Position numbers and translations under genes: made by a program. From assembly GCA_902515625.1 (NCBI GenBank), contig CABXVD010000004.1, positions 1 through 55,177 of the forward strand: 55,177 nucleotides of DNA. The letters are read 5' to 3'. Positions 52,385 to 54,497 of the stretch are shown in pieces; position 1 is the stretch's first letter, and the number at the start of each line of letters is the position of its first letter. The stretch is from an uncultured Pelagibacteraceae bacterium. GTDB taxonomy: Bacteria > Pseudomonadota > Alphaproteobacteria > Pelagibacterales > Pelagibacteraceae. The notes under the pieces are model-generated. The model made no database searches. It was not told the origin of the DNA and worked only from the letters and a program-made list of their open reading frames with translations.

Positions 52385-53311
52385 ATGAAAATTTTAGGTA
52401 TTGGAAACGCAATTGTTGATGTGCTTTGTAAAGTTGATGATGAATTTTTAATTAAAAATTCTCTAACTAAAAGTACTATGAAACTAATAGATAAGACAGA
52501 GTTTAAAAACCTACTTTCAGGTTTATCTATTGAGGATACTATTTCTGGTGGTTCAGTTGCAAATTCTATTGTTGGGTTGTCACAACTAGGCAATAATGTT
52601 GGTTTTATTGGAAAAGTTAATAATGACGAACTGGGTCAAAAATATGAAGACGGATTACAAAAGGAAAAAGTAAACTTTTTATACTCCAAAAAAAATGAGC
52701 CTACTCCTACAGGAACTTGTTTAATTTTAATTACTCCAGATTCCGAGAGGACTATGTGTACTTTTCTTGGTATTGCAGGAAAAGTAAGTGATGAAGATGT
52801 AAACGCAGATCTAATCAAGAAAGCAGAAATAACTTTTTTAGAAGGTTATTTATGGGATGAGGGAGAACCAAAAAAAGCTTTTGATAAAGCTATTTTAAAC
52901 TCAAATAAAGTTGCTATGTCATTATCTGATCTTTTTTGTGTTGAGAGGCATAAAGCTCAATTTTTAGAACTGGTAAAAAATAAACTTGATATTATTTTTG
53001 CTAATGAACAAGAAATATTATCATTAACTGAAAGTAAATCATTTTATGAGGCAGTAACTTTTGTAAAAAATTTAAATAAAGATGTTGTAATTACTAGAGG
53101 TAAAAAAGGTGCAATGGCAGTAAGTAAAAATGAGGTAGTAGAATGTGCTGCAGCAAAAAATCTTAACATAACTGATCTAACTGGTGCAGGGGATCTATTT
53201 GCTGCTGGGTATTTGCATGGAGTTATAAATCATAAAAGTGTCAAAGAAAGTTTGGGGATAGGTACTGAATTATCAGCTAAAATTATTCAGAAAATTGGTG
53301 CAAGAATTTAA
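52385..53311 (+). CDS. PfkB-family sugar/adenosine kinase
   Basis: SGGSVANSIVGLSQLG, VITRGKKGAMAV, NITDLTGAGDLFAAGYLHG (PfkB signature 2). Confidence 0.88.
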   Translation: MKILGIGNAIVDVLCKVDDEFLIKNSLTKSTMKLIDKTEFKNLLSGLSIEDTISGGSVANSIVGLSQLGNNVGFIGKVNNDELGQKYEDGLQKEKVNFLYSKKNEPTPTGTCLILITPDSERTMCTFLGIAGKVSDEDVNADLIKKAEITFLEGYLWDEGEPKKAFDKAILNSNKVAMSLSDLFCVERHKAQFLELVKNKLDIIFANEQEILSLTESKSFYEAVTFVKNLNKDVVITRGKKGAMAVSKNEVVECAAAKNLNITDLTGAGDLFAAGYLHGVINHKSVKESLGIGTELSAKIIQKIGARI

Positions 53312-53445
53312 TATTTTTTAGGCTTTGGGTTTTTTAAGCGTTTAAAACTACCTTTGCCTTTTTTTGCTTTAACTATTTTTGGTTTGAATTTATTTGTATA
53401 TAAATCTTTGATAATAGGATTTTTCTTATTTAATTTTATAACCAT
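53308..53445 (-). CDS. ArfA-like alternative ribosome-rescue factor (45 aa)
   Basis: Not in ORF track. MVIKLNKKNPIIKDLYTNKFKPKIVKAKKGKGSFKRLKNPKPKKY; KAKKGKGSFKR aligns with E. coli ArfA [11 protein letters not shown] with conserved flanks. Confidence 0.72.
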   Translation of the reverse strand: MVIKLNKKNPIIKDLYTNKFKPKIVKAKKGKGSFKRLKNPKPKKY

Positions 53446-53989
53446 TTTTTTCACTTATAATAAAATCATTATCGTTAAAAAAATTTAAGAATTTTTTTCT
53501 AAGTCTATATATATGGGTTTCAACAGTATGTGTTTCTAACTCTTTTTGATAACCCCATACTTTTGACTGCAATTCATCACTACTGGTTGGTTTAGCATTA
53601 TTTGATAAATAAATAATAGTTTGAATTTCTTTTTCAGTTAATTTTAACTTTTTTTCATCTTTAAAAATTTCCCTAGAATTTAAATCAATTTTATAATTAT
53701 TAATTAATATTTGTGATTGATCATTAAATTTTTGTTTTAATAGCTGTATATTTATTTTTTCAATTAATTTAGAGATTTTTATAGGCTCTGACTTTATAAT
53801 TAGATAATTTTTAATTTTTGGAATTTCTTTTTTTGTAATGATTAAATGATTTGAAATTGACTTCATTTGTTTGTCCAAGCTTTCTTGGTTTGAGATTTCA
53901 ATAACCTCAAAATTTAAATAGTCATCTAATTCACTCATAATTTCACATAAATATGGTAACTGATAGATTAATAAATTTTGATTATTCAT
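53426..53989 (-). CDS. Winged-helix (OmpR/PhoB-type) transcriptional regulator with degenerate receiver-like N-terminus
   Basis: C-terminus LTEKEIQTIIYLSNNAKPTSSDELQSKVWGYQKELETHTVETHIYRLRKKF...ISEKNGYKI is a trans_reg_C domain; N-terminus lacks recognisable phospho-acceptor motifs. Start at internal ATG (MNNQNLL). Confidence 0.78.
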   Translation of the reverse strand: MNNQNLLIYQLPYLCEIMSELDDYLNFEVIEISNQESLDKQMKSISNHLIITKKEIPKIKNYLIIKSEPIKISKLIEKINIQLLKQKFNDQSQILINNYKIDLNSREIFKDEKKLKLTEKEIQTIIYLSNNAKPTSSDELQSKVWGYQKELETHTVETHIYRLRKKFLNFFNDNDFIISEKNGYKIK

Positions 53990-54002
53990 ATATATTAAGA
54001 AT

Positions 54003-54497
54003 ATGTTAATTATTCTCAAAAATAAACATACTCTTCAGGTTGATGAGTTTAGTTTTAAATGCTGTATTGGAAAAAACGGTTCATCTCTCGTAAAAAAAGA
54101 AGGTGATAAAAAAACTCCTAAAGGCATTTTTAAGATTGAAAATTTATATTATAGAAAAGATAAAGTAAAAAAGCCTCTTACCACTCTAAAGTGCATAAAA
54201 ATTAAGAATAATATGGGATGGTGTGATGACGTTTATCACCCAAAAAAATACAATAAATTAATAAAAACTAGTTTTGAAATTAAACACGAAAAACTTAAAA
54301 GAACAGACGACAAATATAATCTGTTAATACCTATAAAATATAATTTTGATAAGCCTGTAATTGGACTAGGTAGTTGTATTTTTATTCATCTTACAAAAGA
54401 TTATAAACCAACTGCAGGATGCATAGGACTGAAAGAAAAAGATTTTTTAATAATGTTAAAATTAATTGATAGAAATACAAAAATTAAAATTCTCTAA
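54003..54497 (+). CDS. L,D-transpeptidase (YkuD) catalytic-domain protein
   Basis: KTPKGIFKI, GSCIFIHLTKDYKPTAGCIGLKEKDF (H...GC catalytic motif). Confidence 0.82.
   Translation: MLIILKNKHTLQVDEFSFKCCIGKNGSSLVKKEGDKKTPKGIFKIENLYYRKDKVKKPLTTLKCIKIKNNMGWCDDVYHPKKYNKLIKTSFEIKHEKLKRTDDKYNLLIPIKYNFDKPVIGLGSCIFIHLTKDYKPTAGCIGLKEKDFLIMLKLIDRNTKIKIL

Follow-up and report, generated by a model that had tools for sequence, protein, structure and literature searches.

The window, by which we mean the whole 55,177-nucleotide stretch of Pelagibacteraceae DNA analysed here, contains a 45-aa open reading frame that is absent from the list of predicted genes. It runs on the minus strand from an ATG at 53443-53445 to a TAA at 53308-53310 (Table 1). 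A sequence-only reading of the window had reported this frame, and we recovered it with exactly the protein sequence given there, together with the 114-bp gap between the two listed neighbour genes and the interlocking of its stop codon with that of the pfkB-family gene (53309-53311), the two sharing a TTAA. That reading was silent on the opposite end of the frame, where the first 20 nt, start codon included, overlap the 3' end of the upstream gene on the same strand. Because of this overlap, the 45-aa gene and the upstream response-regulator-like gene are probably translationally coupled. The same frame stays open upstream to a GTG at 53454, a possible alternative start that would yield a protein of 48 aa.

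Table 1. Coordinates of the arfA-like gene of the window, its parts and its neighbours.
Feature	Positions	Strand	Basis
arfA-like CDS, 45 aa	53308..53445	-	ORF; Pfam PF03889 (26.1 bits vs 25.5); conserved frame; pN/pS 0.25
28-residue ArfA core N9-R36, gapless to E. coli ArfA N14-R41	53338..53421	-	alignment; PDB profile search
KKGKGSF motif; E. coli ArfA counterpart occupies the empty mRNA channel	53344..53364	-	sequence; channel location PMC5378476
TTAA, interlocked stops of arfA (-) and pfkB (+)	53308..53311	.	sequence
Conserved upstream neighbour, a winged-helix response-regulator-like gene with a 20-nt overlap onto the start of arfA	53426..54019	-	
Convergent pfkB-family kinase gene, conserved neighbour	52385..53311	+	

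The 3' end of the gene (53310-53370) also holds an imperfect inverted repeat, AGGCTTTGGGTTTTTTAAGCG...CCTTTGCCTTTTTTT on the plus strand, followed by a T run toward pfkB, and this repeat might serve as a pfkB terminator. Its structure is not conserved among relatives and its score is under the threshold of the terminator scan, which found no terminator at the arfA/pfkB junction; an Rfam search likewise gave no match.

The encoded protein scores 26.1 bits against the Pfam ArfA profile, which is above the curated cut-off (PF03889; cut-off 25.5, E = 5.7e-6). ArfA helps to release ribosomes that have stalled on damaged mRNAs. We built a profile (A1) from 45 SAR11 copies of the gene and searched it against all PDB chains (177,635 sequences); at E values up to 10 it returned six matches, all of them ArfA chains of distinct sequence from ribosome complexes (E ~4e-7). 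Lysine-rich composition does not explain these ArfA-only matches, because the PDB is rich in lysine-rich ribosomal proteins. Comparison of the SAR11 form with canonical ArfA by hhalign gave a probability of 97.6% over 34 columns, and the half of the protein that precedes KKGKGS matches the E. coli protein better than it matches permutations of that protein (P = 0.0004 for the family and 0.0024 for the window copy). The window protein had no match in NCBIfam, none to DUF7230 (PF23876) in the Pfam search and none in PHROGs, where two relatives match unnamed families only. On sequence grounds this is a real, overlooked gene that belongs to the ArfA family, as a variant in a lineage where it was not expected.

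The gapless 28-residue alignment to E. coli ArfA proposed in the sequence-only reading is correct, with 12 of the 28 residues identical. Kept in E. coli numbering are N14, I16, L20, an aromatic residue at F25, R/K28, V/I29, K31 and KKGKGS[FY].R, the motif KKGKGSFKR being residues 28-36 of the window protein. The accompanying claim that the aliphatic positions are kept stands for I16, L20, F25 and V29 (as I) and fails for A18, L19 and L24, which are K, D and K. Across 130 SAR11 copies, the equivalents of N14, L20, KKG.GS and R41 are invariant, that of F25 is always aromatic (F or Y), and those of A18, L19 and L24 are rarely aliphatic. The hydrophobic patch that binds RF2 (L19, L24, F25) is kept in part only: F25 stays as F or Y, with D for L19 and K for L24 in the window copy; canonical ArfAs also vary at L19 (Q in some), and the change of L24 to K is not seen among them. 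The basic tail of the window copy reaches the equivalent of E. coli residue 50, and the shortest relatives, many SAR11 copies among them, end at about the equivalent of residue 44; the reported length limit of E. coli ArfA is Asn47 (PMC5378476).

The gene is widespread in the order. The Pfam ArfA search matched 119 of 197 order genomes, at one place each, with 63 over the cut-off, while among 14 control genomes only E. coli matched. With the A1 profile, 132 of 194 order genomes matched, 16 of them weakly (2 in genus g6 and 14 in family f2), and strong matches occurred in 112 of the 149 near-complete order genomes, all from the window's own family. The named relatives (n = 80) belong to Pelagibacteraceae and Candidatus Pelagibacter; the pattern used to find them fixes part of KKGKG, so that some of the motif conservation in this set follows from the search itself. 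The gene keeps a fixed place, in the order nth, pfkB, convergent arfA, response-regulator-like gene, YkuD-like gene and PLPBP-like gene, the names of the neighbours resting on sequence resemblance. Genus g5 (L246:3574-3784) has arfA in this neighbourhood too, separated from pfkB by inserted genes. Close pairs give a pN/pS of 0.25 over the 28 codons, compared with 0.76 in a shifted frame (the pairs are not independent), and variability, as entropy, is concentrated at third codon positions. The frame is kept at one locus in most Pelagibacteraceae, and the pattern of substitution, which is of the coding type, indicates that SAR11 arfA is under purifying selection.

About a quarter of the near-complete order genomes have no strong match, several complete same-genus genomes among them, and arfA is therefore dispensable in some lineages. 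In eight same-genus genomes without arfA (L247-L254, several of them complete or near-complete), the gene is absent from the junction of pfkB and the regulator, and in most of these the pfkB and regulator stops lie within ~10 bases of each other.

In Alphaproteobacteria the usual backup rescue factor is ArfB. No ArfB-sized gene was found in near-complete Pelagibacteraceae genomes, each of which has two RF-1-domain genes of ~350 aa, matching RF1 and RF2. tmRNA was detected in 56 of 58 order genomes, including this draft, and SmpB in all 39 near-complete genomes; SmpB was not found in this draft (G000; 66% complete), most likely as a result of assembly incompleteness. The residues of E. coli RF2 that contact ArfA are Trp319, Phe217 and Val198 (PMC5378476), and the RF2 of the window's own genome (on C18) keeps them, with Ile in place of Val198.

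Canonical arfA mRNA carries a hairpin that gives rise to a non-stop message and hence to repression by tmRNA (PMC8012679), a trait which is typical of canonical arfA rather than universal or defining, and which concerns regulation and not the activity of the protein. Our folding test gave a mean z of -4.11 for 18 canonical arfA genes, with 16 below -2, whereas 129 SAR11 copies gave a mean z of +0.36, with 3 below -2, and a smaller run of 49 SAR11 copies a mean of 0.16. We thus rejected an RNase III hairpin at the 3' end of SAR11 arfA, the canonical genes serving as positive control. From the start of KKGKGS to the end of the protein the median distance is 12 residues in the SAR11 gene, compared with 34.5 in canonical arfA. 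The lack of a 3' hairpin, together with an ordinary stop codon, makes it probable that SAR11 arfA escapes the known repression by tmRNA, in agreement with the earlier remark that non-stop autoregulation is not evident here.

We consider it highly probable that the gene encodes a compact ArfA, which would replace ArfB as the backup to tmRNA-SmpB and would be made without tmRNA repression. The proposal draws on the ArfA homology, the purifying selection, the fixed locus, the presence of tmRNA, SmpB and RF2, and the absence of ArfB and of the hairpin; translation, ribosome binding, RF2 recruitment, the backup role and unrepressed expression are predicted from these. The sequence-only reading of the gene as a compact ArfA is borne out by the conserved frame, the Pfam score and the agreement of the PDB profile search with hhalign, its rescue activity being a prediction. 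If the protein works as its E. coli counterpart does (PMC5378476), its KKGKGS tail would sense the empty mRNA channel, with the N-terminal part recruiting and opening RF2, so that the compact protein could back up tmRNA-SmpB where ArfB is missing. ArfB (YaeJ) has the backup role proposed for SAR11 ArfA, but brings its own GGQ. The SAR11 gene directly encodes roughly what remains of the E. coli protein after processing and ends in an ordinary stop codon; its expression would be free of tmRNA-dependent repression and may depend on translational coupling to the regulator gene upstream. With ArfA of E. coli and other Gamma- and Betaproteobacteria (YhdL, PF03889) the SAR11 form shares the gapless 28-residue core, the basic tail and a host that has RF2 and tmRNA-SmpB; it differs in its length of 45 aa rather than ~72, in the lack of a hydrophobic C-terminal tail, in the replacement of A18, L19 and L24, and in ending at an ordinary stop codon without a 3' hairpin.

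Recruitment of RF2 is likely, and dependence on RF2 is a prediction, because two of the three leucines of the RF2 patch (L19 and L24) are not kept. The same replacements favour an alternative in which the ArfA descendant still occupies the empty mRNA channel and has changed its partner, recruiting RF1 or, like Francisella ArfT, either factor. The leucines that contact RF2 are replaced, and the window copy has K, D and K at the equivalents of A18, L19 and L24, positions that are rarely aliphatic in the 130 copies. However, all 130 copies have an aromatic residue at F25 and retain L20, and the contact residues of RF2 (Trp, Phe and V/I) are conserved in SAR11, so we regard a change of partner as improbable. 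The altered RF2 patch, together with the short length of many relatives, would also suit an ArfA-derived basic peptide that acts on stalled or idle ribosomes without peptide release, for example as a stress or hibernation factor. Such a role is very unlikely given the strong constraint on KKGKGS, the end arginine and the aromatic F25, and given that these genomes lack ArfB.

Lysine-rich frames are common in AT-rich genomes, and the NCBIfam search left the window protein without a match, as would be expected of a chance frame that has no product. A chance origin is nevertheless scarcely credible when frame and locus are conserved, pN/pS is 0.25 and the profile matches ArfA only, and we rejected a chance ORF on its conservation in many genomes.

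Relatives of the compact ArfA also occur in viruses. At least 221 viral contig stretches encode ArfA-like relatives, and all six of six viral representatives pass the ArfA cut-off. The viral ORFs (L141-L220, and L346:2989-3165, which is gp30 of HTVC027P) often carry an N-terminal KWDG.SR...-IF extension. The possibility that these contigs are contaminating host DNA was rejected, as host neighbour genes are present on 0 of 80 loci. A tblastn search of phages with the 45-aa protein gave no match, probably due to masking of its lysine-rich sequence, and a phage-type query found relatives. PHROG 20887 and PHROG 37108, both of unknown function, match SAR11 ArfA-like proteins. An ArfA domain has been named in pelagiphage HTVC027P (PMC12753301), whose own record annotates gp30 as a hypothetical protein, and ArfA has been named in a Citromicrobium phage (PMC8953757). 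The HTVC027P protein and similar phage ORFs share the core motif of the SAR11 gene, and HTVC027P infects a SAR11 host; they differ in often having an N-terminal KWDG.SR... extension and a longer C-terminus, and in being borne by viruses, whereas the SAR11 gene has a fixed chromosomal locus.

Among the SAR11 relatives, genus g6 and family f2 lack the KKGKGS form and have a gene of 35-47 aa (L240-L245, for example L243:1660-1783 and L244:1842-1983), which starts with N[PI][VI]A[KR].LRT.[FY] as SAR11 arfA does but carries KKKY.RK or a similar stretch at the position of KKGKGS. One of these small genes reaches the cut-off of DUF7230 (PF23876), a family of unknown function that shares the N[PI][VI]A[KR].LR...[FY] core and the basic tail with the SAR11 form, but has KKKY.RK where the latter has KKGKGS. 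By hhalign, the DUF7230-like form scores 96.4% against the SAR11 form and 29.9% against canonical ArfA. It is possible that the DUF7230-like gene is a second ArfA-like form, and we offer this as a lead.

A 2024 survey of 15,259 genomes, conducted with nucleotide profiles, found arfA in 0 of 2,376 Alphaproteobacteria and described it as restricted to Gammaproteobacteria, some Betaproteobacteria and ten Bacillus species (PMC11633108; similarly PMC8012679). Nucleotide profiles could well miss short AT-rich genes. Among 385 genomes across Alphaproteobacteria, 10 match ArfA, three of them Pelagibacteraceae, and we found no report of ArfA in SAR11 cells in the open-access literature searched. A broader proposition, that SAR11 swapped ArfB for a minimal, tmRNA-unrepressed ArfA and that a wider ArfA-like superfamily extends through marine phages and DUF7230-like genes, is one that we put forward tentatively, judging it somewhat less probable than not. 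If true, release-factor-dependent rescue would be far more widespread than surveys show.

An ArfA at a fixed locus in most Pelagibacteraceae, which rank with the ocean's most abundant cells, alters the known distribution of this factor and points to a candidate backup for tmRNA in genomes that lack ArfB. As the SAR11 form ends approximately where the E. coli protein is cut, rescue activity would here be separated from the tmRNA feedback loop, and the phage relatives make ribosome rescue during infection a testable question.
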